A DNA stretch of 64,000 nucleotides from Shinella sp. H4-D48. GTDB lineage: Bacteria; Pseudomonadota; Alphaproteobacteria; Rhizobiales; Rhizobiaceae. This document shows positions 3,034 to 26,690 of the stretch, in pieces. Positions within the stretch are counted from its first letter, which is position 1, and the number at the start of each line of letters is the position of its first letter. The stretch spans positions 1,472,001 through 1,536,000 of the forward strand of contig NZ_CP093337.1 of NCBI RefSeq assembly GCF_022637395.1. Reading direction: 5' to 3'. Position numbers and translations under genes: made by a program. Below the pieces are notes generated by a model, which saw only the letters and a program-made list of their open reading frames with translations, was not told where the DNA came from and made no database searches.

Positions 3034-4269
3034 ATGAAAATTCGTTCGATGGCCGCTGCATTGGCGGTGACCGTGGTCCTGCCGTTCGCCGCAGCCAATG
3101 CGACCGATCTGGAAGTGACCCATTGGTGGACGTCCGGCGGGGAGGCCGCGGCGGTCGCCGAATTTGCAAAGGCATTCGATGCGACGGGCAACAAGTGGGT
3201 GGACGGCGCAATTGCCGGCGCCGGCGGAACGGCGCGACCGATCATGATCAGCCGCATCACCGGCGGCGACCCCATGGGTGCCACGCAGTTCAACCACGGC
3301 CGCCAGGCCGAGGAACTGGTCGAGGCCGGCCTGATGCGCGACCTCACCGATGTCGCGACCAGGGAAAACTGGAAGGAGATCATCAAGCCCGCAAGCCTGC
3401 TCGACAGCTGCACGTTCGACGGCAAGATCTATTGCGCGCCCGTCAACATCCATTCCTGGCAGTGGCTGTGGTTGTCCAACGCGGCCTTCGAAAAGGCCGG
3501 TGTGGCGGTTCCCAAGAACTGGGACGAGTTTGTCGCCGCCGCTCCGGCGCTTGAAAAGGCCGGTATCGTGCCGCTCGCGGTTGGCGGTCAGCCCTGGCAG
3601 GCCGCTGGCGCTTTCGATGTGCTGATGGTCGCAATTGCCGGCAAGGACACGTTCTACAAGGTCTTCAAGGACCGCGATGCCGAAGTCGCCGGCGGTCCTG
3701 ACATTGCCAGGGTCTTCAAGGCCGCGGACGATGCGCGCCGCATGTCCAAGGGCACGAATGTGCAGGACTGGAACCAGGCCACGAACATGGTCATCACCGG
3801 CAAGGCCGGCGGCCAGATCATGGGCGACTGGGCGCAGGGCGAGTTCGCGCTCGCGGGACAGGTGGCCGGCAAGGACTATACCTGCCTTCCGGGCCTCGGC
3901 GTGAACGATATCATCTCGACCAGCGGCGACGCCTTCTATTTCCCGCTGCTGAAGGATGAGGAAAAGTCGAAGGCGCAGGAAGTGCTGGCATCGACGTTGC
4001 TGGCGCCCGCAACGCAGGTCGCCTTCAACCTGAAGAAAGGCTCACTGCCGGTGCGCGGCGATGTCGATCTCGCCGCCGCCAACGACTGCATGAAGAAGGG
4101 TCTCGACATCCTTGCCAAGGGCAACGTGATCGAGGCGCCGGACCAGATGCTCTCGGCCGACAGCCAGAAGCAGAAGGAAGACCTCTTCTCCGAATTCTTC
4201 GCCAACCCCTCGATGACACCGGAAGACGCCCAGAAACGTTTTGCCGACATCATCGCCTCGGCGGAATGA
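3034..4269 (+). CDS. Sugar ABC transporter substrate-binding protein (CUT1 type)
   Basis: Periplasmic receptor of 411 residues in the family-1 extracellular solute-binding group. A Sec signal peptide is clear: basic MKIRS start, hydrophobic core and AANA cleavage site at about residue 22. The mature protein begins with a beta strand (DLEVTHWWTSGGE) typical of oligosaccharide-binding members, with MGDWAQGEF further on. It is the first gene of the operon and is followed by two permeases, an ATPase, a beta-mannosidase and two sugar-converting enzymes. A mannoside or a related oligosaccharide is therefore the inferred ligand; this is context only. Confidence 0.92.
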   Translation: MKIRSMAAALAVTVVLPFAAANATDLEVTHWWTSGGEAAAVAEFAKAFDATGNKWVDGAIAGAGGTARPIMISRITGGDPMGATQFNHGRQAEELVEAGLMRDLTDVATRENWKEIIKPASLLDSCTFDGKIYCAPVNIHSWQWLWLSNAAFEKAGVAVPKNWDEFVAAAPALEKAGIVPLAVGGQPWQAAGAFDVLMVAIAGKDTFYKVFKDRDAEVAGGPDIARVFKAADDARRMSKGTNVQDWNQATNMVITGKAGGQIMGDWAQGEFALAGQVAGKDYTCLPGLGVNDIISTSGDAFYFPLLKDEEKSKAQEVLASTLLAPATQVAFNLKKGSLPVRGDVDLAAANDCMKKGLDILAKGNVIEAPDQMLSADSQKQKEDLFSEFFANPSMTPEDAQKRFADIIASAE

Positions 4270-4275
4270 TCAGCG

Positions 4276-4302
4276 GACGGCCGGTGCTTGTTGCCGGCCG
4301 TC
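4276..4302 (+). terminator. Intercistronic hairpin after the binding-protein gene
   Basis: A perfect 9-bp stem (GACGGCCGG/CCGGCCGTC) with a 9-base loop starts 6 bp after the stop codon at 4269. No U-tract follows. It therefore looks like a 3' mRNA-stabilising or attenuating structure of the kind often found between binding-protein and permease genes, rather than a full terminator. Confidence 0.55.
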
Positions 4303-4390
4303 AGCAAGGCCCGAGACCTCTTTGCCGCCATGCTCGGGCCTGTCCTGAGGATAACGAAAGAGTGGGTGACTGGGTTTTGCGGTTCGCGAA

Positions 4391-4410
4391 GGCGGGCGCT
4401 TGCGCCCGCC
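4391..4410 (+). other. Second intercistronic hairpin before permease gene
   Basis: GGCGGGCGC-TT-GCGCCCGCC is a perfect inverted repeat in the same 171-bp gap. It sits 16 bp ahead of the AAGGAGG ribosome site (4426-4432) of the permease gene. With the first hairpin it may set lower expression of the membrane components. Confidence 0.45.
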
Positions 4411-4440
4411 CGTATGATCGAGACCAAGGAGGAGTGACCC

Positions 4441-5343
4441 ATGACGGGCCAGGCACACACCGGTCGCCCCAGTAAACTGCTGCGCAATCTCAGTTCGAAG
4501 ATTGCATCCATTCCCATGATGCTGACCGCCGTCGTCATTTTTCTCGGCGGCACGATCTGGACGGTCGTCTATTCGTTCACCAATTCCAAGCTCCTGCCGC
4601 GCGCCAAATTCGTCGGGCTGGACCAGTACGAGCGCCTGTGGGATGCGCCGCGCTGGATCGTCTCGATCCAGAACCTGGCGATCTACGGCTTTTTCACGCT
4701 GGTCTTCAGCCTCGTCATGGGCTTCCTTCTGGCGGCGCTGATGGACCAGAAGATCCGCTTCGAAAACACCTTTCGTACAATCTTTCTCTACCCTTTCGCG
4801 CTGTCCTTCATCGTGACGGGCCTCGTCTGGCAATGGATCCTGAACCCGGAATTCGGCGTGCAGTCGGTAGTGCGTTCGCTTGGCTGGACAAGCTTCACGT
4901 TCGATCCGCTCTACAATGCCGATATCGTCATCTACGGCGTGCTGATCGCCGGGCTGTGGCAGGGCACGGGGCTCGTCATGTGCCTGCTGCTGGCCGGCCT
5001 GCGCGGCATCGACGAGGATATCTGGAAGGCCGCGCGCGTCGACGGCATCCCCATGTGGAAGACCTATCTCTTCATCGTCATTCCCATGATGCGCCCGGTC
5101 TTCATCACGACGCTGGTCATCATCGCGAGCGGCATCGTCAAGGTCTATGACCTCGTTGTCGCGCAGACGAGCGGCGGCCCGGGCATCGCCTCGGAAGTGC
5201 CGGCGAAATACGTCTACGACTACATGTTCCAGGCCCAGAACCTCGGCCAGGGCTTCGCCGCCTCCACCATGATGCTCATCACCGTCGCAATCATCATCAT
5301 CCCGTGGGCCTATCTCGAATTCGGAGGACGCAAGCGTGGCTGA
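4441..5343 (+). CDS. Sugar ABC transporter permease (MalF type)
   Basis: An inner-membrane permease of 300 residues with about six transmembrane segments. The cytoplasmic EAA loop that docks on the ATPase is seen as KAARVDGIPMWKTYLFIVIP. The first membrane segment is at about residues 22-45. AAGGAGG at 4426-4432 gives a well-supported ATG start. The next permease starts inside its last codons (8-bp overlap), indicating translational coupling. It forms the transmembrane pore with the following protein. Confidence 0.93.
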   Translation: MTGQAHTGRPSKLLRNLSSKIASIPMMLTAVVIFLGGTIWTVVYSFTNSKLLPRAKFVGLDQYERLWDAPRWIVSIQNLAIYGFFTLVFSLVMGFLLAALMDQKIRFENTFRTIFLYPFALSFIVTGLVWQWILNPEFGVQSVVRSLGWTSFTFDPLYNADIVIYGVLIAGLWQGTGLVMCLLLAGLRGIDEDIWKAARVDGIPMWKTYLFIVIPMMRPVFITTLVIIASGIVKVYDLVVAQTSGGPGIASEVPAKYVYDYMFQAQNLGQGFAASTMMLITVAIIIIPWAYLEFGGRKRG

Positions 5344-6274
5344 GACCGTCTCCCTCAAGCCCGGCGCGGCGCGCGTCGCCACCGCCGGAACGCCGGGCGA
5401 GCCCTGGGGCAGGAAGCCCCGCCGCACGCTTTCCGGTCGCAACATCATGCTCTACGGCACGCTTCTCGTGGCGGCGCTCTACTACCTGCTGCCGCTCTAT
5501 GTGATGGTCGTGACTTCCATGAAGGGCATGCCGGAAATCCGCCTCGGCAACATCTTCTCGCCGCCGGTGGAAGTGACCTTCGAGCCTTGGGCCAAGGCCT
5601 GGGCCACCGCCTGCACCGGTCTCAACTGCGATGGCCTGTCGCGCGGCTTCTGGAATTCGGTGCGCATCACCGTGCCCTCGACGCTGATCTCGATCCTCGT
5701 CGCCTCGGTCAACGGCTATGCGCTGGCCAACTGGAAGTTCAAGGGGGCGGACCTGTTCTTCACCATCCTCATCATCGGAGCCTTCATTCCCTATCAGGTG
5801 ATGATCTATCCTATCGTCATCGTGCTCCGGGAAATGGGCATCTACGGCACGCTGACCGGCCTCATCATCGTGCACACGATCTTCGGCATGCCGATCCTCA
5901 CGCTGCTCTTCCGCAACTATTTCTCGTCCCTGCCGGAGGAGCTGTTCAAGGCGGCGCGCATCGACGGAGCGGGGTTCTGGCAGATCTATTTCCGCATCAT
6001 GCTGCCCATGTCGCTGCCAATCTTCGTCGTGGCGATGATCCTGCAGATCACCGGCATCTGGAACGACTTCCTGTTTGGCGTCGTGTTCACGCGGCCGGAA
6101 TATTACCCGATGACCGTGCAGCTCAACAACATCGTCAACTCCGTCCAGGGGGTGAAGGAATACAACGTCAACATGGCCGCGACACTGCTTACCGGCGCGG
6201 TTCCGCTCATCGTCTATTTCGTGTCGGGACGGCTTTTCGTCCGCGGCATCGCCGCCGGCGCAGTCAAGGGTTAA
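5336..6274 (+). CDS. Sugar ABC transporter permease (MalG type)
   Basis: Second permease of the CUT1 transporter, 312 residues. It has a GTG start overlapping the preceding gene by 8 bp. An N-terminal cytoplasmic leader of about 35 residues precedes the first membrane segment (NIMLYGTLLVAALYYLLPLY). The EAA loop is KAARIDGAGFWQIYFRIMLP. The ATPase gene follows after 3 bp. It pairs with the MalF-type subunit in the inner membrane. Confidence 0.93.
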   Translation: MAETVSLKPGAARVATAGTPGEPWGRKPRRTLSGRNIMLYGTLLVAALYYLLPLYVMVVTSMKGMPEIRLGNIFSPPVEVTFEPWAKAWATACTGLNCDGLSRGFWNSVRITVPSTLISILVASVNGYALANWKFKGADLFFTILIIGAFIPYQVMIYPIVIVLREMGIYGTLTGLIIVHTIFGMPILTLLFRNYFSSLPEELFKAARIDGAGFWQIYFRIMLPMSLPIFVVAMILQITGIWNDFLFGVVFTRPEYYPMTVQLNNIVNSVQGVKEYNVNMAATLLTGAVPLIVYFVSGRLFVRGIAAGAVKG

Positions 6275-16342: not shown

Positions 16343-16734
16343 CCACGCAGCAATTGACGAAGAACCAGGGCCTCGTCTTCGACGTGCTGTCGCATTCCGA
16401 CAGCCCGCTCAGCGCCTACACCATCCTCGACAAGCTGCGTGACAACGGGTTTCGCGCGCCGCTCCAGGTCTATCGCGCGCTGGACAAGCTCCTGGAGTTC
16501 GGTCTCGTGCACCGGCTCGAGAGCATCAACGCCTTCGTGGCCTGTGCCCATCCGAACGAGGGCTGTCATAACCACGGCATCACCGCCTTCACGATCTGCG
16601 AGACCTGCGGCAAGGTGACGGAGTTCCACGATCACGTGATCGAGGACCGGCTGAAAGCCTTTGCCAAGGACCGCAACTTCAAGACCGGCAAGACGACAAT
16701 CGAAATTCGCGGCACCTGCGCGGGGTGTGCGTAG
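16339..16734 (+). CDS. zur: Zinc uptake regulator, Fur family
   Basis: A 131-residue repressor that binds DNA when zinc-loaded. The winged helix occupies about residues 1-80 (SPLSAYTILDKLRDNGF). Metal ligands follow: CAHPNEGCHNHG, then ICETCG and a final CAGC, giving the paired Cys of the structural zinc site. It ends the znuCB-zur operon, so it is probably autoregulated through the boxes at 14508-14544 and also controls the CobW-type gene. Mur or Fur identity is disfavoured by the zinc context. Confidence 0.93.
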   Translation: MTTQQLTKNQGLVFDVLSHSDSPLSAYTILDKLRDNGFRAPLQVYRALDKLLEFGLVHRLESINAFVACAHPNEGCHNHGITAFTICETCGKVTEFHDHVIEDRLKAFAKDRNFKTGKTTIEIRGTCAGCA

Positions 16735-16768
16735 GGTTAGGAGGTTGATCTGTGCAGGCCGGGAGGGA

Positions 16769-17299
16769 TCAGTCGATCCGCTTTAGCCCCTTCCTGAAGC
16801 GCTTCCAGTTCTGGACATAGCTTTCCGCTGAAAGCTTGAGGCCGGCAACGGCAGCGTCGTCCAGCGTGCGCACGGCCTTTGCGGGCGCGCCGACAATGAG
16901 GGAATTGTCCGGAAAGACCTTGCCTTCCGTCACCAGTGCATTCGCACCGACGAGGCAATTGTTGCCGATGACGGCGCCGTTCAGCACCGTGGCGCCCATC
17001 CCGACCAGGGAATTGTTGCCGATGGTGCAGCCGTGGATGATGGCGCCGTGGCCGATGGTGCAGCCCTCGCCGATGATGACGGGCTTGCCCGGATCGGTAT
17101 GCACCACCACACCTTCCTGAATGTTCGAGCGCGCACCGACGATGATCGGCTCGTTATCGCCGCGCAGCGTGGCGCCGAACCAGATGCCGACATCCTCGCC
17201 AAGGATGACCTTGCCGATGACATTGGCATCCGGTGCCACCCAGTAGCGGTCGTCGGCGGGGAGTGTGGGCGCGCGGTCGTCGAGGGCGTAAAGCGGCAT
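16769..17299 (-). CDS. Gamma-carbonic anhydrase family protein
   Basis: A 176-residue left-handed beta-helix protein built from hexapeptide repeats, YrdA/PaaY type. The three metal-binding His of the family are recognisable in VVHTDPG, TIGHGAII and IHGCTIG. It could hydrate CO2, but many members have no proven activity. It is convergent with zur and divergent from dusA. A related acyltransferase role is possible, but the regular repeats and His spacing favour this family. Confidence 0.9.
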   Translation of the reverse strand: MPLYALDDRAPTLPADDRYWVAPDANVIGKVILGEDVGIWFGATLRGDNEPIIVGARSNIQEGVVVHTDPGKPVIIGEGCTIGHGAIIHGCTIGNNSLVGMGATVLNGAVIGNNCLVGANALVTEGKVFPDNSLIVGAPAKAVRTLDDAAVAGLKLSAESYVQNWKRFRKGLKRID

Positions 17300-17405
17300 G
17301 GTTTCCTCCGGCGGTCTGATTCCTGACGCAGTCTAGCACCGGCCCGGCGGTTGGGCGAAAGGGCGAGGGTGGTTTTTGCTGATCATATGGAGTATGAGCC
17401 CGGCC

Positions 17406-18482
17406 ATGACGAACAGAGCGACATTCTACAGCCGGGCCGTGGAGACGGGGACGAAGATTTTCGCCACCGCGCCGATGATCGACTGGAGCGACCGGCATTT
17501 TCGCGTGTTCGCGCGCCAGCTCACCCGCAACGCGTTGCTCTTCACGGAAATGATCGTTGCTGACGCCATCCTGCGCGGCAATCGCGAGCGGCTGCTCGGC
17601 TTCGACGCGATCGAACATCCTGTGGCATTGCAGCTCGGCGGCAACAGCCCGGAGAAGCTTGCGGAAGCTGCACGGATCGGCGAGGGTTTTGGTTATGCCG
17701 AAATCAATCTAAATGTCGGCTGTCCCTCGGATCGGGTGCAATCTGGCACCTTCGGCGCCTGCCTGATGCGCGAGCCGGATCTGGTGGCCGATTGCGTGGC
17801 GGCAATGCGGGTGGCGGTGTCGATCCCGGTCACGGTGAAGTGCCGCATCGGCGTTGATGACCAGGACCCCGAGGTGGCGCTGCGTGACCTCGTGTCCCGT
17901 GTGAAGGCGGCCGGCACGGATGCCGTCTGGGTCCATGCGCGCAAGGCCTGGCTGCAGGGCCTGTCGCCGAAGGAGAACCGGGACATTCCGCCGCTCGACT
18001 ACGGCCTCGTGCATCGGCTGAAAGCCGAAAACCCGAACCTTTTCATCGGTCTCAACGGCGGGCTTCAGAGTTTGAGTCAGGCCGTGGGCGAGATGGATGG
18101 GCTGGATGGGGTCATGCTCGGACGGGCGGCCTACCAGGATAGCGGTGTTCTCACGGGCGTGGACCGGCTTTTCCCGCATCCCCTGTCGGAAGGCGTGCCG
18201 TCCGGTGTCTTCTCCGGTCCGCAGGACATGTCGGGTGAAGACTGGGAGGCGGTGCGCGATGCGATGGTCGCCTATGCCGGCGAGGTGATCGCGCGGGGCG
18301 GGCGGGTGGCGCATGTCACGCGGCATATGGTCGGCCTGTTCCAGGGCTTTCCGGGCGTGCGCCGCTACCGGCAGATCCTGTCCACCGACGCCACGAAACC
18401 GGGGGCGGGGCCGCAGGTGATCGCCGATGCCTTCGCGGCGGTGCTTGCCGCGCGCGCCGCCGCGCAGGATGCGGCGGAGTAG
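17406..18482 (+). CDS. dusA: tRNA-dihydrouridine synthase A
   Basis: A flavoenzyme of about 358 residues that reduces uridines in the tRNA D-loop. The FMN-barrel motifs are in order: APMIDWSDRH, LQLGGNSPE, NLNVGCPSDRVQSGTFGACL with the catalytic Cys region, then HARKAWLQGLSPKENRDIPP, GLNGG and GVMLGRAAYQ. The last long motif is specific for the DusA subgroup. The start is uncertain: ATG at 17406 is used here; in-frame ATG at 17394 and TTG at 17376 are also open. It stands as a single gene. Confidence 0.93.
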   Translation: MTNRATFYSRAVETGTKIFATAPMIDWSDRHFRVFARQLTRNALLFTEMIVADAILRGNRERLLGFDAIEHPVALQLGGNSPEKLAEAARIGEGFGYAEINLNVGCPSDRVQSGTFGACLMREPDLVADCVAAMRVAVSIPVTVKCRIGVDDQDPEVALRDLVSRVKAAGTDAVWVHARKAWLQGLSPKENRDIPPLDYGLVHRLKAENPNLFIGLNGGLQSLSQAVGEMDGLDGVMLGRAAYQDSGVLTGVDRLFPHPLSEGVPSGVFSGPQDMSGEDWEAVRDAMVAYAGEVIARGGRVAHVTRHMVGLFQGFPGVRRYRQILSTDATKPGAGPQVIADAFAAVLAARAAAQDAAE

Positions 18483-18587
18483 CGCTTTCTGTGCATCGGC
18501 CCCGGCATGACCACAATTTCGTCCCCTCGGGGTCGGAAAACGGCGTAAAAGAACCGACGACGCAATGAGAGACGAACAGGTGCCCGC

Positions 18588-19193
18588 GTGATCGATCCCT
18601 ACGCCATGCTCGGACTGGAGCGCGATGCAGACGACAACGCGGTCAAGGCCGCCTACCGCAAGGCCGCCAAGGGCATGCATCCCGATTCGGGCGGCGATGC
18701 CGACCAGTTCGCCCGCCTGCAGGCCTGCTACGACCTGCTGCGCGATCCGGTGCGCCGCAAGGTGTTCGACGACACCGGCTTCGACCCGCAGCTCGCCGAC
18801 CCGCGCGACCTCAAGGGCCTGATGCTGCTGGAACCGCTGGTCAACGACGTCATCCTCGACGAGCGCGAGCCGGGCAGCTTCGATCCGCTGGCGGCGATGC
18901 GCCGAAAACTCTCCGACGACATCGTCAAGAGCCGCTTCCACATCCTGGAGCTCGAACGCCACCGCAACCGGGTGCGCCAGCACATCGACCGCCTCGGCCG
19001 CAAGGGCGGCACGGATTTCCTCGGCTCCATGCTGCGCGCCCGCTCGCAGTCGATCACCGAGGCCATCCGCAATGCCGAGGGCCAAATCCAGGCGATCGAG
19101 CAGGCCTATACGATGCTGGAAGGCTATTCCTACGAACTGGCCGCCGCCCTCGACACCGCCGCGCTCGACGTGAAGGGCGAGGCGGCCGAATAG
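18588..19193 (+). CDS. J-domain (DnaJ-like) protein
   Basis: A 201-residue protein with an N-terminal J domain at about residues 3-65 (DPYAMLGLERDA, then the HPD motif in MHPDSGGD), which would stimulate a DnaK-type Hsp70. The remaining part (about 80-200) is helical and charged and lacks the Gly/Phe and zinc-finger regions of true DnaJ, so its client or specialised role is unknown. The start is GTG at 18588; its ribosome site is weak (GAACAGG). No operon partner is evident. Confidence 0.8.
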   Translation: MIDPYAMLGLERDADDNAVKAAYRKAAKGMHPDSGGDADQFARLQACYDLLRDPVRRKVFDDTGFDPQLADPRDLKGLMLLEPLVNDVILDEREPGSFDPLAAMRRKLSDDIVKSRFHILELERHRNRVRQHIDRLGRKGGTDFLGSMLRARSQSITEAIRNAEGQIQAIEQAYTMLEGYSYELAAALDTAALDVKGEAAE

Positions 19194-19208
19194 GCCGCGC
19201 CGCCGCCA

Positions 19209-19649
19209 TCATCGCAAATCCCGCCAGCCCTCCGGCAGCGGCGGTTCCTCGCCGTCATATTCGGCCGGCGGCCGCGCCGCGCGCATGGCGGCAAAGGCCC
19301 GGAACTCCCGCAGCGCCGCGCCGGATTTCACCGTGCGCGCCACCGCCATGCCGGCATCCTGGAGCGCGCGCGTGTCGCGATAGGGCGAGGCGAAGGTGAC
19401 CCGGCTGAAAAACGAGCTGTAATCGACGATGTCGCGCACCTCCTCCGCCACGGCGTGGAATTGCGCGCGCTGCCCGGCATCGAGGTTGCGCAGGCAGAAG
19501 GGCTGCTGTGTGTTGCGCGAGACCCAGCAGCACCGGCCGCGGCGACGGCAGTCGCGCAGGCGGCAGGCGCGCCAGGGCAGCGCCAGCATTTCGGCGATGC
19601 GGGCGAGCAGGAAGGGCGATAGCGGGGGAAGCTTGCTGCGGTCGATCAT
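19209..19649 (-). CDS. Cys/Arg-rich hypothetical protein
   Basis: A 146-residue protein that I do not recognise. It starts MIDRSKLPPLSPF with AGGAG well placed upstream, which decides this start over longer readings. An early Cys cluster (ACRLRDCRRRGRCCW, residues about 27-41, plus a Cys 10 residues on) could bind metal. The rest is helical with many Ala, Arg and Glu, ending PPLPEGWRDL. It is convergent with the J-domain gene, 15 bp apart. Its upstream side is the structured gap before the AT-rich gene. Confidence 0.65.
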   Translation of the reverse strand: MIDRSKLPPLSPFLLARIAEMLALPWRACRLRDCRRRGRCCWVSRNTQQPFCLRNLDAGQRAQFHAVAEEVRDIVDYSSFFSRVTFASPYRDTRALQDAGMAVARTVKSGAALREFRAFAAMRAARPPAEYDGEEPPLPEGWRDLR

Positions 19650-19819
19650 GGGAGCTCCTGTCGGTTGAGAAGGGCGCGGGCTGCGCGGCGCCGCGACCGG
19701 CGGGCGGACCAAGTCCGTTGCCGGCGGCGGCTGAGGATGGGGCGGCGGGTGTCGCAAGGCGGACAGCCGCCCGCATCGCCGCGCGTGAGATCACGCCGGG
19801 TTATGGGCATCGGTATCGG

Positions 19820-19877
19820 ACGGGGCGCTGAAAGCTGCCGCATCAGATAGTATAAATGGCACCTTTCAGCGCCCCGT
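19820..19877. repeat. Long inverted repeat (15-bp perfect stem)
   Basis: ACGGGGCGCTGAAAG (19820-19834) pairs perfectly with CTTTCAGCGCCCCGT (19863-19877). After a one-base mismatch on each side, TGCC/GGCA adds 4 bp, leaving an 18-base AT-rich loop. GGCGGTTTTTGCC follows on the plus strand. It could be a structured RNA, a terminator-like element or a recombination or repeat-element end. It is 171 bp upstream (minus strand) of the Cys-rich hypothetical gene start. Confidence 0.7.
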
Positions 19878-20010
19878 TCGGCGGTTTTTGCCCGCGACTC
19901 CGGTCTCTCTGCAAGGAACGGGTCCGGCGGCGCTTGCCGTCGGTTTCCGGGGCGGGCCCCGCCGGGGTTTTTCGCGCCTGACAGGGCTCACCTTCGAGCA
20001 CCGTCAGGGC

Positions 20011-20032
20011 GGAAAGGCGTCACCGCCTTTCC
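20011..20032. repeat. Hairpin in GC-rich gap
   Basis: GGAAAGGCG-TCAC-CGCCTTTCC forms a perfect 9-bp stem with a 4-base loop. No U-tract follows. It may be part of a structured transcript spanning the gap. Confidence 0.5.
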
Positions 20033-20392
20033 CGGCAAGTCATCACTCCGGCGGACGATGCCGACGCACCCTCCGGCCCCGTTCCCCTTGTGTGCCGCAC
20101 AGGCACGCCCGACGCGCCGTCCGGGGCTGAAACGGGGGAGCCGGTCCGACGCTCCGCCGCTTCCCCCGTGTCGCCGGAGGGAGACCATTTTCCGCGGACC
20201 CTCAAGATGCAGGCTTACGTCCGTCCCGCACCCCAAGCGCCGACCCCGCCTCGCCGCAACGCCTTGCGGTGTATCCGCGACGGGATGAGGGGATTATCGC
20301 ATGGGTTTTTGGGGGCGGGGAAAAATGAAACGGCTGGTGGGGAAATTTCCCATTTTAAAGCGACAATATGGAGCATCCAAAAGGAGAATTCG

Positions 20393-20413
20393 GTGGGTGA
20401 ATTATACGTTTGA
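20393..20413 (+). other. Six-codon leader ORF with strong ribosome site
   Basis: AAGGAG at 20381-20386 is followed by GTG GGT GAA TTA TAC GTT TGA, encoding MGELYV. It lies in the AT-rich leader of the orphan gene starting at 20483. Whether it is translated is unknown. Confidence 0.3.
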
Positions 20414-20441
20414 TTGCAATCCGTGCGATAAGGAGACAAAT

Positions 20442-20456
20442 ATGGATTATATCTAG
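20442..20456 (+). other. Four-codon leader ORF with strong ribosome site
   Basis: AAGGAG at 20430-20435 is followed 6 bases later by ATG GAT TAT ATC TAG (MDYI). Its ribosome site is better than that of the main gene 27 bp downstream, so it could modulate translation of that gene. Confidence 0.35.
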
Positions 20457-20482
20457 TTTTTATCTGAGGAACGCTCGTTGAG

Positions 20483-21844
20483 ATGACCCAAGAATTAGCT
20501 CCCCTTTCAGAAGCCCTGGATCATAGTGCTCTTAGCAGTATTGACGCTACAGCATTACCGGTAGCTAAACATATCGATATTGGTTTCTTTTCGCACAGAG
20601 CCAGAAAATCCACACAGTTAGTTGAAAATTCTTCGGAAGAAAACTTTATTAAAGCACGTCGTGAATGGATGGACTTCGATTTCATTGATATAATTTATGT
20701 AACAAAGATAACAGTATTTGCATTTGGATATGAAGACTACCATGAACTCGAGTTAAGTTATAAAGACTATATCGGTGGATCAACAAAAAGTGAATCTGTA
20801 AGATACGGCGACGGTAAATTTATTTTTAACGTCAATAGATTTATTGGCGGATTTGGCTTGAGGCCTAATGAAAGATTTTTTAAAGATTCAAAGTTGACGA
20901 AGATAACCGTAGAAGGAATTGAGCAAAATTCTTTTTCAGATGTTATTTCAATTCTGGATGGATTCGAGGGGTACAGAAAAAATGTCGAAGGTAATCTTAA
21001 TCAGTACCTAAAGAGGGCGCAGCAATACGAGGAAACTTATAAATCGCTATCAATTAAGATTGCAGATTTGCAGGAGATGCTTTCTGATCAAAGTGATCAG
21101 TTTTCAGATTTGGAGGCGTCCATAGCCGACCATTCAGAAACTCTTGAGAATAGAAAAAAAGAAATTGCTATCGCGGAGTCTGTAGCAAGAAATTTAAATG
21201 AAGAAAATCAGAGATATAGAAATAATGTTGACAGATTAACTAAAGATTCCGAGAATTTATCTAAGGATATTTCGGAAAAAGAGTCGAGATTAAGATCTCT
21301 TGTCAGTGATATCAATCTATTTCCTACAGAGATATCTGGATATGTTTCTCAGGGCGCAAAGAATGTTTCTGTTTACGCATGGCTTTGTGCTGCGCCGTTG
21401 ATTGTAATTATATTTGTTACGGGTAGGTTATTTTGGAATTCTGAGAAATTGATTAATTTGGATTTTGGTGATGGATTTGATGTTGTCGATTTTATAGTTT
21501 CAAGATCTCCGTATGTTATTATATCTGCCGTTGTCCTTGCGGTTTGTTATACGATGTTACATCGGTTAATTACAGAGATTATAGGCATTAACCGCAGGCG
21601 ACAAGACTTATTTAAGATAAGTATTATTGCTACAGACGTCTCAAATGCCTCGCAAAACAACTTGGATATCCCGCTGGAAGACGTTTATAATCTTCGGACG
21701 CAAGTCAAAATGGAGCTTTTAAAGGAGCATTTGCGTAGACATATCGGCGAAGATTTTGTTTACAATCCGAAATCTAGCCTGTTCCATAAGCTCACGTCGA
21801 AAATTGCAGGGCAAATCGCTTCGGAAGAGAAGGACGCCGACTAG
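20483..21844 (+). CDS. AT-rich orphan gene: coiled-coil protein with two C-terminal membrane segments
   Basis: A 453-residue protein of no family I recognise. Residues about 20-160 look like a beta-rich globular domain (FDFIDIIYVTKITVFAFGYE, then GKFIFNVNRFIGGFG). Residues 165-278 form a long charged coiled coil. Two hydrophobic segments lie at about 295-317 and 343-363, and a helical cytoplasmic tail follows. There is no signal peptide. Codon use is strikingly AT-rich (many AAA, TTT, ATT, AGA), unlike every neighbour, so recent transfer is likely. The ATG at 20483 has only a weak GAGGA 13 bases upstream. It is convergent with uvrB, 16 bp apart. A membrane-anchored sensor or defence effector is only a guess. 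Confidence 0.8.
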   Translation: MTQELAPLSEALDHSALSSIDATALPVAKHIDIGFFSHRARKSTQLVENSSEENFIKARREWMDFDFIDIIYVTKITVFAFGYEDYHELELSYKDYIGGSTKSESVRYGDGKFIFNVNRFIGGFGLRPNERFFKDSKLTKITVEGIEQNSFSDVISILDGFEGYRKNVEGNLNQYLKRAQQYEETYKSLSIKIADLQEMLSDQSDQFSDLEASIADHSETLENRKKEIAIAESVARNLNEENQRYRNNVDRLTKDSENLSKDISEKESRLRSLVSDINLFPTEISGYVSQGAKNVSVYAWLCAAPLIVIIFVTGRLFWNSEKLINLDFGDGFDVVDFIVSRSPYVIISAVVLAVCYTMLHRLITEIIGINRRRQDLFKISIIATDVSNASQNNLDIPLEDVYNLRTQVKMELLKEHLRRHIGEDFVYNPKSSLFHKLTSKIAGQIASEEKDAD

Positions 21845-21860
21845 TTCTCTAGCACTGTTT

Positions 21861-24800
21861 TCACCGCCCCGGCCGCCCCGTTTTCCCCTTCGTCCGCCCC
21901 TTGCGCTTCGCCTCCGCCGGATCCTCATAGCTTCCGACGCCGATCTTCCCCCGGCGGACCGGCTTCGCGTCGTCGGCGCCGGTGGCGCGTTCGGGTTGGC
22001 CTTCCAGCAGGGGGGAATGGCGTTTCTTAGTGGAGAGGGTTTCCGGCGGGCGTTGGGGCAGGTCGCCGGTGACGGGTTTTTCGGTGCGGCCGACGGTCAT
22101 TTCGTCGAGGCTGTTCTTGCGGAACAGCGATTTGCCGGCGGGGGTTGCGACGTCTCGGCCCATCTCGTCCAGTTTCGGCTTGCGGAAGAGGGGGCGTTCG
22201 ATATCGGTGCCCGGGCCCATGTCGTCGAGCGAGGGTTTCTGGAAGAGGCTGCCGCTCATTCTCCCCCCTTGTGGGGGAGATGCCCCGTCAGGGGCAGAGG
22301 GGGGTGTCGCGCCGGCCGTGGAGGGGGCACCCCCCTCTGTCCTGCCGGCGTTCGTCGCTGCAATCGATTCACTGGATCGATTGCTCCGCTGCGCGGACCG
22401 CTCCTCACCCCCCACAAGGGGGGAGATCGACCCGCGGCCGGCGCCGGTTTTCTTCCCGTCGCCGCCTTGTGTCTTTGCCGGGCCCTTTGGCTTACCGCTG
22501 CCACCTTCCTGACTTTTCGCTTCTTCGCGTGCCATCGGGTCGTCCATGACGGCGAGTTCGGCGGCCTTGAGGCGCTTGATCTCGTCGCGCAGGCGGGCGG
22601 CCTTTTCGAAGTCGAGATCGGCGGCGGCGTCGCGCATGGCTTTTTCCAGCGCGTTGAGATGGGCCTGGAGATTGTTGCCGACGAGGTTGCCGCCGTCCGC
22701 GAATCCCTTGCCGGAGACGCCGGAGATATCGGCGCGGACGTGATCGCGCTCATAGACGGAGTCGAGGATATCGGAAATCTTCGCCTTCACGGATTCCGGG
22801 GTGATGCCGTGCGCCTCGTTATAAGCGACCTGCTTTTCGCGGCGGCGGGTCGTCTCGTCCATCGCGCGCTGCATGGAGCCGGTGATCTGGTCGGCATAGA
22901 GGATGACCTTGCCATCGACGTTTCGCGCGGCACGCCCGATGGTCTGCACCAGGGACGTTTCCGAGCGCAAAAAGCCTTCCTTGTCGGCATCGAGGATGGC
23001 GACGAAGCCGCATTCGGGAATGTCCAGGCCCTCGCGCAGCAGGTTGATGCCGACGAGCACGTCGAAGGCGCCAAGCCGCAGGTCGCGGATGATCTCGATG
23101 CGCTCCAGCGTGTCGATGTCCGAGTGCATGTAGCGCACGCGAACACCCTGTTCGTGCAGGTATTCGGTGAGGTCTTCGGCCATGCGCTTGGTGAGCACGG
23201 TGACGAGCGTGCGGTAGCCGGCCTGGCTGGTCTCGCGGATTTCGCCCAGCACGTCGTCCACCTGGCTTTTTGCCGGGCGCACCTCGACGGGTGGGTCGAT
23301 CAGCCCGGTCGGGCGGATGACCTGCTCGGCGAAGACGCCGCCGGACTGCTCCATCTCCCAGTTGCCGGGGGTGGCTGAGACGGCGATCGTGTCGGGGCGC
23401 ATCGCATCCCATTCCTCGAAGCGCAGCGGGCGGTTGTCCATGCAGGACGGCAGGCGGAAGCCGTATTCGGCCAGCGTCGCCTTGCGGCGGAAGTCGCCGC
23501 GATACATGCCGCCGATCTGCGGAATGGTGACGTGGCTTTCGTCGATGAAGATCAGCGCGTTGTCGGGGATGTATTCGAACAGCGTCGGCGGTGGCTCGCC
23601 GGGCCGGCGGCCGGTGAGATAGCGCGAATAGTTCTCGATGCCGGCGCAGGAGCCGGTGGCCTCCAGCATCTCGATATCGTAGCGCGTGCGCTGCTCCAGG
23701 CGCTGCGCCTCCAGGAGGCGGCCGGCCTTTTCCAGCTCGGCGAGGCGCAGCTTCAGCTCCTCGCGGATCGCCTTGATGGCGCCGTTCAGCGTGGGGCGCG
23801 GCGTGACATAGTGGCTGTTGGCGTAGATCTTGACCGATTTCAGGTCGCCGGTCTTCTGGCCGGTCAGCGGGTCGAACTCGGTGATGGCGTCGATCTCGTC
23901 GCCGAACATCGAGATGCGCCAGGCGGCATCCTCAAGGTGGGCGGGGAAAATCTCGATCGTGTCGCCCCGAACCCGGAAACTGCCGCGCTGAAAATCCATC
24001 TCGCGGCGCTTGTACTGCTGGGCGACGAGGTCGGCGAGCAGCTGGCGCTGGTCGAGCCGTTCGCCGACCTCCATCTGGAAGGTCATGGCGGTGTAGGTCT
24101 CGACCGAGCCGATACCGTAGATGCAGGAGACCGAAGCGACGATGATGCAATCGTCGCGCTCCAGCAGCGAGCGGGTGGCGGAGTGGCGCATGCGGTCGAT
24201 CTGCTCGTTGATCGACGATTCCTTCTCGATGAAGGTATCGGAGCGCGGCACATAGGCTTCCGGCTGGTAGTAGTCGTAGTAGGAGACGAAGTACTCGACC
24301 GCGTTTTCCGGGAAGAAGTTCTTGAACTCGCTGTAGAGCTGGGCGGCCAGCGTCTTGTTCGGCGCGAGGATGACGGCGGGGCGCTGCGTTTCCTCGATGA
24401 CCTTGGCCATGGTGAAGGTCTTGCCCGAGCCGGTGACGCCAAGCAGCACCTGGCTGCGCTCGCCCGAGGACAGGCCCTCCACGAGATCGCGGATCGCCGT
24501 CGGCTGGTCGCCGGCCGGCTGGTATTCGCTGATCATGCGGATCGGGATGCCGCCTTCCGACTTCGCCGGCCGGGCCGGGCGGTGCGGCGTCCACAGCTTG
24601 CCGTCCTTGAACAGCGGGTTTCCGCTCTCGATGAGCGCCGACAGTGCCTCCACCGTCGCGGTGACCGCCGTGCCGGCATTGAGCGACGCGGCGTCCTCCA
24701 GCGAGACATCCATGCCCGAGACCGGGTTGAGGCCGGCGGCGGCGCGCGTCTTCGGATCCGACGAACCGCCGATCGAGACGCCGCGGGAGGTTTTGGAGAC

Positions 24801-25031
24801 AGTAACGTTCTCCGTGTGGCGGCGGGCGGCGTTCTCCACGGTCTTGCGGTGTTTGCCGGCCTTCGAGGCGACCTCGCGGCGGCTCTCGACGCCCGACGCC
24901 TCGGCCTCGGCCTCCAGCTGCTTCACCCAGTCCGAGACGCTGCCGGACAGCGGCTCTCCCTCGAAAGGCGATTGCGGGGCTTCCTCGAAACCGGGGTTCG
25001 AGGGCGGGGATTTTTTCGGGGTTCTGGCCAT
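21861..25031 (-). CDS. uvrB: Excinuclease ABC subunit B, with long N- and C-terminal extensions
   Basis: Damage-recognition helicase of nucleotide excision repair, working with UvrA and UvrC. Core motifs: [12 protein letters not shown], Walker A GVTGSGKT, the beta-hairpin region [20 protein letters not shown]-box-like IDESH, GLINPPVE-type segment (here GLIDPPVEV), and the UVR domain at about residues 790-825. At 1056 residues it is far longer than the usual 670: about 165 extra residues precede the core and about 230 follow the UVR domain. Residues about 867-925 are encoded by a RIME-type repeat, and three LFxKxxLDxM motifs follow. The start is taken as MARTPKKSP at 25031; a TTG at 25082 is also open. 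Confidence 0.95.
22261..22425. repeat. RIME-type palindromic element inside the uvrB coding sequence
   Basis: The outer inverted repeat is CTCCCCCCTTGTGGGGG (22261-22277), matched perfectly by its reverse complement at 22409-22425. An inner inverted repeat pairs 22291-22306 (GGGGCAGAGGGGGGTG) with 22328-22342, with one mismatch. Blocks such as GGGGAGATG and CTCTGTCCTGCCGG are shared with the element at 7389-7535. It is read through in frame as a Ser/Gly/Ala/Pro-rich, probably disordered, segment of UvrB about 58 residues long, without a stop or frameshift. Confidence 0.8.
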
Positions 25032-25120
25032 GCGGGGAATATGGAGAGAGTCACCGCGAAAAGAAAGGGGCGGCGAGTACAAAAGGGAAACGAATTTGCG
25101 TCGTTTTCCGTGTCGGCGGG

Positions 25121-26029
25121 TCAGGGCAGGTGGCTGGCGAAGATGTCGCGCACGATATCCGCGACGTGCCGCACGGCACGGTCCCTGTCGCGGCGGCGGT
25201 GCCAGGCGAGGTGGAGCGGAAAGCCCTCTACCGGCAGCGGCGGCGCGGCGATATGCAGGCGGCCGGCAGCATCGGCGGGCACCGTATGGGCCGGCATCAT
25301 CGCCAGGAGGTCGCTGTCCTCTAGCAACGGCGGGACCATCAGGAAGCTCGGCACGACGATGCCGATGCGGCGCGACCGGCCCAGCGCGGCGAGCTGGTCG
25401 TCGAGGCCGCTGCGCGTGTCGCCGCGCCCGGAAACCAGGACATGCGGGTAAGCGAGCCAGCGCTCCAGCGTGAAATCGGTGGCGGCCGGATGGTCGCGCC
25501 GCATGGCCACGACATAGTGCTCGTGCAGCAGCGTCTCGCAGTGGAAGGCGGTTTCGTCGATGGCGGGGAAGACCGAGATCGCGATGTCACCGGCGCCCCG
25601 GGCGAGGGATTCGAGCGCCGCCGGCGCGCTCTGCCACGGCTGGATGACGAGGTCGATGCCGGGCGCGGAACGGGCCAGCGCGCGGTGCAGCGGGCTGGCA
25701 ATGAGGATGCCGGGATGATCGGCGGTGATGATACGCACGGTCTGGCGGATCTCGGCCAACGGTTCCTCCGGCGCATCGATCACGGCGGCAATACCGATGA
25801 GCAGGCTTTTCAGGGGATCGCGCAGCGCCTCCGCGCGCGCCGTCAGTCGCATACCGCCTTTGCCGCGTTCCAGCAGGGGGTCGCCGAAGAGGTGGCGGCA
25901 GCGGTCGAGCGCGCTTGATGTGGCCGACTGCGAGAGGTTCAGCCTGGCCGCCGCGCGCGACACATGGGCCTCGTCCAGCAGGGCGTCGAGGATGACGAGG
26001 AGGTTGAGGTCTACGGATCTTAAATTCAT
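25121..26029 (-). CDS. LysR-family transcriptional regulator
   Basis: A 302-residue regulator with a typical LysR helix-turn-helix at about residues 5-65 ([20 protein letters not shown], then [16 protein letters not shown]) and a C-terminal effector-binding domain. It is of the NodD/PnbR-like class judged by the opening [10 protein letters not shown]. It is divergent from a flavodoxin-fold oxidoreductase across an 88-bp gap that holds an inverted repeat, so it probably controls that gene, perhaps in response to a quinone or other electrophile. Confidence 0.93.
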
Positions 26030-26050
26030 CAGATCAATAATAGCATATAT

Positions 26051-26072
26051 AAATCATCCATTGGAATGATTT
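26051..26072. promoter_or_regulatory. Candidate LysR binding site
   Basis: AAATCAT-N8-ATGATTT is a perfect 7-bp inverted repeat. It is centred in the divergent 88-bp gap and contains the T-N11-A arrangement of LysR sites. The surrounding AT-rich run (ATAATAGCATATATAAATC) would suit overlapping promoters. Confidence 0.6.
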
Positions 26073-26117
26073 ACGGCCTTGCCGCATGGTCTGCCTGTCA
26101 ACACAGGAGACGACGCC

Positions 26118-26690
26118 ATGAGCAAGACCTTGATCCTCCTCTTCCACCCCGATCTCAACCGGTCGCGTGCCAATGCGGCCCTTTCGACCGCGGCGGCGCG
26201 TTTGCCGCATGTCGAGGTGGTCGATATGCAGGCGGTCTGCAAGGACGGCGGGATCGACGCCGATCGGGAGGTTGCCCGGCTGCTTGCCGCCGACCGGATC
26301 GTGCTGCAATTCCCAATCCAGTGGTATTCCACGCCGCCGTTGCTCAAGGCGTGGCAGGACGCGGTGCTGACGCGGATGTTCTACATGGCGTATGAGAGCG
26401 AGGGCCGCCTGCTGGAGGGCAAGCCGCTGCTGGTCGCGGCGACGGCCGGGAACGTGCCGGAAGCCTATGCGCCTGCTGGCCCCAACCGGTTCACCATGGA
26501 TGAATTGCTGCGTCCGCTCGAGGCGACTGCCCATCGCTGCGGCCTGCATTGGCAGCCACCGGTCCTGCTGTTCCGGGCAGACAAGCTCGACGATCTGGCG
26601 CTGCACGGTGCAGCCAGGGATTATGCGGCGTTGCTCGAAACATGGCGCAGGGACGACGAGCGCCGCTATCTCGCGGAAGCCTGGGGCTGA
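26118..26690 (+). CDS. NAD(P)H-dependent oxidoreductase, flavodoxin-like fold (KefF/MdaB type)
   Basis: A 190-residue FMN-dependent quinone reductase-like protein. It starts MSKTLILLFHPDLNRSRAN, the dinucleotide/flavin loop. The family motif FPIQWYSTPPLLKAWQDAVL lies at about residues 72-91. The ATG at 26118 has AGGAG 7 bases upstream. It is divergent from the LysR regulator. KefF-type proteins can act as ancillary subunits of potassium efflux systems. A KefB-like antiporter is encoded at 56038, but the two are 30 kb apart, so a link is speculative. Confidence 0.88.
   Translation: MSKTLILLFHPDLNRSRANAALSTAAARLPHVEVVDMQAVCKDGGIDADREVARLLAADRIVLQFPIQWYSTPPLLKAWQDAVLTRMFYMAYESEGRLLEGKPLLVAATAGNVPEAYAPAGPNRFTMDELLRPLEATAHRCGLHWQPPVLLFRADKLDDLALHGAARDYAALLETWRRDDERRYLAEAWG

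Follow-up and report, generated by a model that had tools for sequence, protein, structure and literature searches.

A single AT-rich gene at the 3′ end of uvrB in Shinella: occupant of a defence-gene slot and probable membrane anti-phage gene

The AT-rich segment and its gene

Next to uvrB in Shinella sp. H4-D48 lies a solitary AT-rich gene, and the locus raises the question of what this gene does and why it sits there. A maximum-scoring-segment scan of the window (the whole 64-kb stretch of DNA that was analysed, from genome G000 at C1 1472001-1536000) delimited one stretch of 37% GC at 20321-21863; elsewhere within the 64 kb no further segment exceeded the scan threshold. An earlier note on this DNA had placed an abrupt change of composition at about 20310-20360 and the return to GC-rich sequence at 21845, and the scan agrees to within ~20 bases. 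The right edge of the segment is the stop codon of uvrB, and on the left it begins where a dispersed repeat has its conserved end. The single long open reading frame (ORF) inside runs from 20483 to 21844 on the plus strand and encodes 453 amino acids. Its third-position GC is 34%, versus 81% in dusA, 90% in the dnaJ-like gene and 86% in uvrB, the three genes compared. The same note had called its codon usage unlike that of any other gene in the 64 kb; this holds against these three neighbours, and in its window-wide form it rests on the segment scan. The features of the locus are as follows.

18588..19193, plus strand: dnaJ-like gene, which flanks the slot on the left in 19 of 21 Shinella genomes, G007 and G017 being the exceptions (region comparison)
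19815..20324, no strand: copy of the dispersed repeat, ~510 bp, whose conserved end is the left cargo boundary (genome matches)
20321..21863, no strand: AT-rich cargo segment, 37% GC (segment scan)
20321..20482, plus strand: non-coding leader of the cargo (shares long identical stretches with the other Shinella carrier)
20483..21844, plus strand: 453-aa gene, with a predicted discoidin-like beta domain, a coiled coil, two transmembrane (TM) helices and a conserved C-terminal tail (ORF list, hydropathy, models, family alignment)
20588..20923, plus strand: codons of the N-terminal beta domain, residues 36-147 (structure models, fold matches)
20960..21331, plus strand: codons of the coiled coil, about residues 160-283 (modelled helix, coiled-coil matches)
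21365..21433, plus strand: TM helix 1, about residues 295-317 (hydropathy)
21491..21571, plus strand: TM helix 2, about residues 337-363 (hydropathy)
21572..21766, plus strand: tail beyond TM2, one of the most conserved regions in the family (family alignment)
21861..25082, minus strand: uvrB, constant right flank of the slot (named from reading the sequence)

Two of 21 Shinella genomes carry the gene, both at the uvrB site; the 92% relative lies in Shinella sp. CPCC 101442. Between the two copies dN is 0.038 and dS 0.904, and the frame is intact. This dN/dS of about 0.04 points to strong purifying selection, which argues for function. The leader (20321-20482) holds long stretches that are identical between the two species despite the dS of 0.90 in the gene; it is possibly a regulatory region.

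Contents of the uvrB site in Shinella and other Rhizobiaceae

We obtained the same region from 20 other Shinella genomes (n = 21 with the window genome). An AT-rich segment of 1.4-2.5 kb ends at uvrB in 18 of the 21. At this end of uvrB, 2 genomes have the window gene, 16 have other cargo and 3 have none (G001, G002 and G006). uvrB is constant in all 21, and next door the dusA-dnaJ interval stays at about 100-210 bp wherever gene order is conserved. As a background, 223 kb of sequence around repeat copies (20 regions from 7 Shinella genomes) contained one AT-rich segment. The same flanks with different cargo, the pattern that defines a defence hotspot, were thus found among the 21 Shinella genomes. 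The cargo that could be assigned is listed below.

OLD nuclease: G015 and G018 (Pfam/PADLOC; G018 by Pfam)
RT-TIR of the retron-type class: G019
AriAB (PARIS) fusion: G012 and G004
SIR2 with a protein kinase: G013
AbiU/AIPR in two frames: G009
PDC-M11A with M11B: G005
GmrSD-like protein with a second ORF: G003
AbiLi with an RloB-like partner: G007
ParA-like ATPase with a HEPN protein: G016 (no PADLOC model at 1e-6)

The AriAB cargo of G004 (L106), the AbiU cargo of G009 (L107) and the RloB cargo of G007 (L120) seem frame-split or incomplete; intact AriAB-type relatives exist.

Among the 27 ORFs listed in the 16 other cargo segments, 22 were compared with Pfam and 20, from 15 genomes, with PADLOC; the latter set leaves out one ORF each of G003, G004, G010, G016 and G018 and two of G017. 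Matches to PADLOC were found in 9 of the 15 genomes at E≤1e-6 and in 7 at E≤1e-50. Ten neighbouring genes of the window served as a control and gave 2/10 at E≤1e-6 (an ABC ATPase and uvrB) and 0/10 at E≤1e-50. The cargo is therefore enriched in known defence genes relative to its neighbours, with the qualification that the control consists of ordinary genes, so that part of the difference may reflect transferred genes generally. In the remaining 6 of 15 genomes (G008, G010, G011, G016, G017 and G020) the scanned ORFs had no PADLOC match at 1e-6, so the slot may also accept other genes. When Pfam (1e-4) and PADLOC (1e-6) are taken together, the scanned ORFs of G008, G010, G011, G017 and G020 gave no match (two of three ORFs scanned in G010, one of three in G017). 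No integrase or transposase was matched by Pfam in the 22 scanned Shinella cargo ORFs.

Beyond the genus, uvrB was matched in 59 of 61 Rhizobiaceae genomes (one per genus), and its 3′ side was read in 20 of the 58 other genera, mostly the more similar ones. An AT-rich ORF stands beside uvrB in ten of these 20 (in L177 about 750 bases off), or in seven by the strict segment score, and is absent at uvrB in the other ten read. For each of the ten, one protein was compared with PADLOC: 7/10 matched at E≤1e-6 and 4/10 at E≤1e-50, all four of the latter being matches to reverse-transcriptase models, which we read as retron models (L182, L185, L189 and L190). Other occupants outside Shinella include a SIR2-type (L175) and a GmrSD-type protein (L176), both by PADLOC, and a RelA/SpoT-like protein (L183). 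By eye, L174 and L176 appear to share gene pairs with Shinella G010 and G003, respectively.

Interchangeable AT-rich cargo, much of it defence-like, in Shinella and in other genera identifies this side of uvrB as a defence-gene slot. The evidence is good both for the slot and for a defence character of much of its contents. If this is right, new immune genes can be sought at one address, the 3′ side of uvrB, in hundreds of Rhizobiaceae genomes. Slot occupants without a family match in these scans are L109 (G010), L174 (G031), L116 (G008), L178 (G098), L108 (G011), L115 (G020) and L121 (G017), and these are candidate new defence genes; the unmatched occupants of the five Shinella genomes, together with the window gene, form a short list of testable candidates.

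Hotspots of phages P2 and P4 reportedly combine fixed flanks with interchangeable defence cargo. The core defence hotspots (cDHS) of Pseudomonas aeruginosa have the same arrangement, and exchange by recombination in the conserved flanks is discussed for them (PMC10250203). The uvrB slot is like cDHS and the P2/P4 hotspots in its fixed flanks and swappable defence cargo. It differs from them in usually containing one small system of 1.4-2.5 kb, in having no integrase or transposase match among the 22 scanned ORFs and no tRNA or tmRNA in the window, and in its anchor, which is the 3′ end of uvrB in Rhizobiaceae. We found no paper describing the uvrB slot in the open-access PMC literature searched.

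How the cargo arrives can be approached from the flanks. For the two carriers of the window gene, dS is 0.26 at uvrB (454 codons) and 0.28 at dnaJ, and the history of the gene seems to differ from that of its flanks; codon bias lowers dS in core genes and could explain part of the gap. G019, the genome closest at dnaJ (dS 0.04), holds the RT-TIR in the slot instead. Simple vertical descent from the ancestor of the carriers is unlikely, because G015, G019 and G012, which are as close or closer at uvrB, hold other cargo and because the gene's dS of 0.90 exceeds that of uvrB and dnaJ. The window cargo contains no integrase or recombinase, only the one long low-GC ORF, and no attachment-like direct repeats span its two ends. 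With neither of these present, exchange by recombination in the conserved flanks would be the simplest idea.

The 453-aa protein, its relatives and its probable role

The earlier note had matched the protein to no family and had described a beta-rich N-terminus, a coiled coil and two membrane helices. These parts are present in the model and in the hydropathy profile, and profile searches likewise gave no family assignment. Every listed Pfam or NCBIfam match was below its curated cut-off (for Pfam, the best 25 of 48 weak matches). Nearly all of the matches listed from Pfam, NCBIfam, PHROGs (the best 25 of 47 weak matches inspected) and PADLOC lie inside the coiled coil; among those listed, the weak matches outside it were DUF1523 (E 0.022) and phrog_30886 (E 0.041). 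The 21 matches listed from PADLOC all fall within about residues 137-284, none of them outside the coiled coil. Exonuc_VII_L, golgin, SMC, Jet, Zorya and similar families were rejected as full-length assignments because they match the coiled coil. We know of no function for any relative of the protein.

Hydropathy places two membrane segments within about residues 292-320 and 334-369. The full-length model is poor (pLDDT 58.9, pTM 0.30) and places beta strands at 63-147 and, after them, a long helix at 148-301; modelled alone, the N-terminal domain reached pLDDT 75.9 and pTM 0.72. A Foldseek search with this domain returned discoidin-like matches of moderate strength (best E 4.6e-4, TM about 0.5): CBM86, IFT25, factor VIII C2, CBM32, APC10 and muskelin. 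There is moderate support for a predicted discoidin (F5/8C)-like beta-sandwich of the jelly-roll type. Residues about 36-147 would resemble F5/8 type C, CBM32, CBM86, IFT25 and APC10 in predicted fold, and differ from them in having no sequence match and in their presumed cytosolic placement. The F5/8 type C profile of Pfam matched none of 14 N-domain fragments, and the viral structure library gave no telling match. Inside cells, IFT25, APC10 and muskelin use the discoidin fold to bind proteins, and matches to them fit a cytosolic sensor role for the N-terminal domain.

An alignment of 14 members has the N-terminal beta domain, a variable coiled coil and the conserved tail after TM2. An (L/I)FP.E motif precedes TM1 in most members, and an RxP motif marks the start of TM2 in every member. 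Since there is no apparent signal peptide and an arginine-rich stretch follows TM2, both ends of the protein are probably cytosolic. Among defence proteins that act as membrane effectors through two TM helices are the SLATT/S-2TM effectors and Cap14/Cap15. The window protein is predicted to share with them a membrane hairpin joined to sensing parts in the cytosol; it differs in the order of its parts and in having no SLATT or Cap match among the listed Pfam or PADLOC matches. Profiles of SLATT and two-TM effectors also matched none of 14 C-terminal fragments. A C-terminal profile gave no significant match to solved structures (PDB); pentameric ligand-gated channels make up 19 of the 22 weak matches listed (best E 0.35), which we do not count as evidence, and nothing in this comparison links the two TM helices to pore formation.

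Members of the family are sporadic. Of 394 Rhizobiaceae genomes sampled, 6 gave a match, the two Shinella carriers included. A six-member profile found 6 of 397 genomes in an order sample, of which G511 matched through the coiled coil alone, and 6 of 398 in a phylum sample; the samples overlap. G056 (query residues 132-278) and G511 (149-279) were dropped as members because their match is limited to the coiled coil. Several relatives stand alone as AT-rich genes next to a core gene: carB (G117), pheT (G365) and trmD (G683), the neighbours being named from sequence. The relative in G827 (L036) is broken into pieces; intact relatives of the window gene exist.

Other relatives are carried by phages. 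The product of phi2LM21_p57, from Sinorhizobium prophage phi2LM21 (MF614627; L005 11986-13365), is 43% identical to the window protein over nearly the whole length, and the gene lies directly after the holin of this tailed phage; it thus sits in a phage genome, whereas the window gene is chromosomal. One member occurs in a Vibrio filamentous phage, and that of G998 adjoins genes read as a corticovirus-like prophage. In viral sequences a scan with the single protein found nothing, and alignment-based scans found members in three IMG/VR contigs: downstream of genes read as tail genes (L031), near a small HTH gene (L172) and between ORFs read as integrase and repressor (L173). The member genes of L172 and L173 have 38% GC, against about 60-65% for the contigs that carry them. 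Plasmid records gave no match with three family members as queries. Lysogeny regions of temperate phages often hold superinfection exclusion and defence genes. The family thus joins solitary chromosomal genes with several unrelated kinds of phage, the pattern expected of inter-phage defence genes.

The annotation of phi2LM21_p57 as an ATP-dependent DNA ligase is probably a misannotation, since its sequence belongs to the family of the window gene and the paper on the phage assigns the ligase to p65 (PMC5537653).

Location and phage carriage are two independent associations, and on both grounds a defence role is probable. We put at roughly 0.6 the probability that the gene is the occupant of a single-cargo defence slot, reaching from the dnaJ-like gene to the 3′ end of uvrB, and belongs to an unnamed mobile, often phage-borne membrane family that is probably anti-phage. 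The window gene would then probably be a defence gene encoding a new single-gene membrane anti-phage protein. The suggestion in the earlier note, a lone transferred gene of the phage-defence kind, is supported by the slot comparison and the phage relatives, from which we infer the function itself. That note had also named outcomes that would speak against it, conservation in place with normal codon usage or a housekeeping match, and neither was found: with 2 of 21 genus genomes carrying the gene, a housekeeping gene is ruled out.

From the anatomy of the protein a mode of action can be proposed. The cytosolic N-terminal discoidin (F5/8C)-like beta-sandwich would bind a phage or host ligand, the coiled coil would oligomerise the protein, and the membrane hairpin with its conserved cytosolic tail might alter the inner membrane by opening it, depolarising it or blocking the entry of phage DNA.

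A different explanation is superinfection exclusion of the lysogenic-conversion type, in which a prophage-derived inner-membrane protein harmlessly blocks DNA entry by related phages and was later captured by the chromosome. The relatives in phage lysogeny or accessory regions (L173, L172 and phi2LM21) and the combination of two TM helices with no recognised enzyme domain would suit such a protein. The assigned alternatives in the slot, however, are mostly intracellular abortive or nucleolytic systems, by what is generally known of their modes of action, and a long coiled coil with an extra beta domain is large for an exclusion protein. We regard exclusion as possible but unlikely.

Phage accessory regions are also known to carry genes for counter-defence, changes to the host envelope or prophage maintenance, and a phage-borne gene with such a role could have entered the defence slot by chance; the 6 of 15 scanned other-cargo genomes without a PADLOC match leave room for this. 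Against it, the cargo that could be identified is defence-like, and several chromosomes have the gene standing alone next to core genes, a setting in which counter-defence would bring little benefit. A role of this kind is very doubtful. A selfish or decaying AT-rich passenger without function would suit the sporadic distribution (2/21 in the genus, 6/394 in the family) and the broken G827 relative, but is strongly disfavoured by the dN/dS of about 0.04, the intact frame, the conserved leader and the invariant positions across 14 divergent relatives.

The dispersed repeat and a second cargo at a gene read as lepA

A search with the last 231 bases of the ~510 bp repeat to the left of the cargo matched 16 of 21 Shinella genomes, with seven matches in G000. 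It borders the uvrB cargo in 13 of the 18 occupied sites and in none of the 3 empty ones; in G004 and G020 it ends some 20-30 bases before the computed cargo boundary. Three genomes with cargo have no repeat match at all (G010, G011 and G013), and two have the repeat elsewhere only (G008 and G016). Rfam, searched over 16500-26500, gave no match for the repeat and no structural RNA at the boundary, and the window contains no tRNA or tmRNA.

We also considered a wider reading: that the 3′ side of uvrB in Rhizobiaceae, and in this genome also that of a gene read as lepA, is an integrase-free cassette slot for single defence systems, that the ~510 bp repeat is part of the exchange machinery, and that the window gene founds a phage-borne, discoidin-sensing membrane defence family. 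As a whole we think this quite unlikely. The machinery role of the repeat is weakened by the 5 of 18 occupied sites that have cargo without it and by its copies elsewhere (L152-L171; 5 of the 20 in G000), of which one, L154, borders an AT-rich segment; the same counts led us to reject the repeat as a necessary partner of cargo. The stretches around the other 19 copies contain no AT-rich segment. In L154 (G000:C1 3332500-3344500), at about 3966-5874, a second AT-rich cargo has a repeat copy on one side and the gene read as lepA on the other, and it consists of a pentapeptide-repeat protein and a small ORF that has no Pfam match and is nucleotidyltransferase-like by eye.
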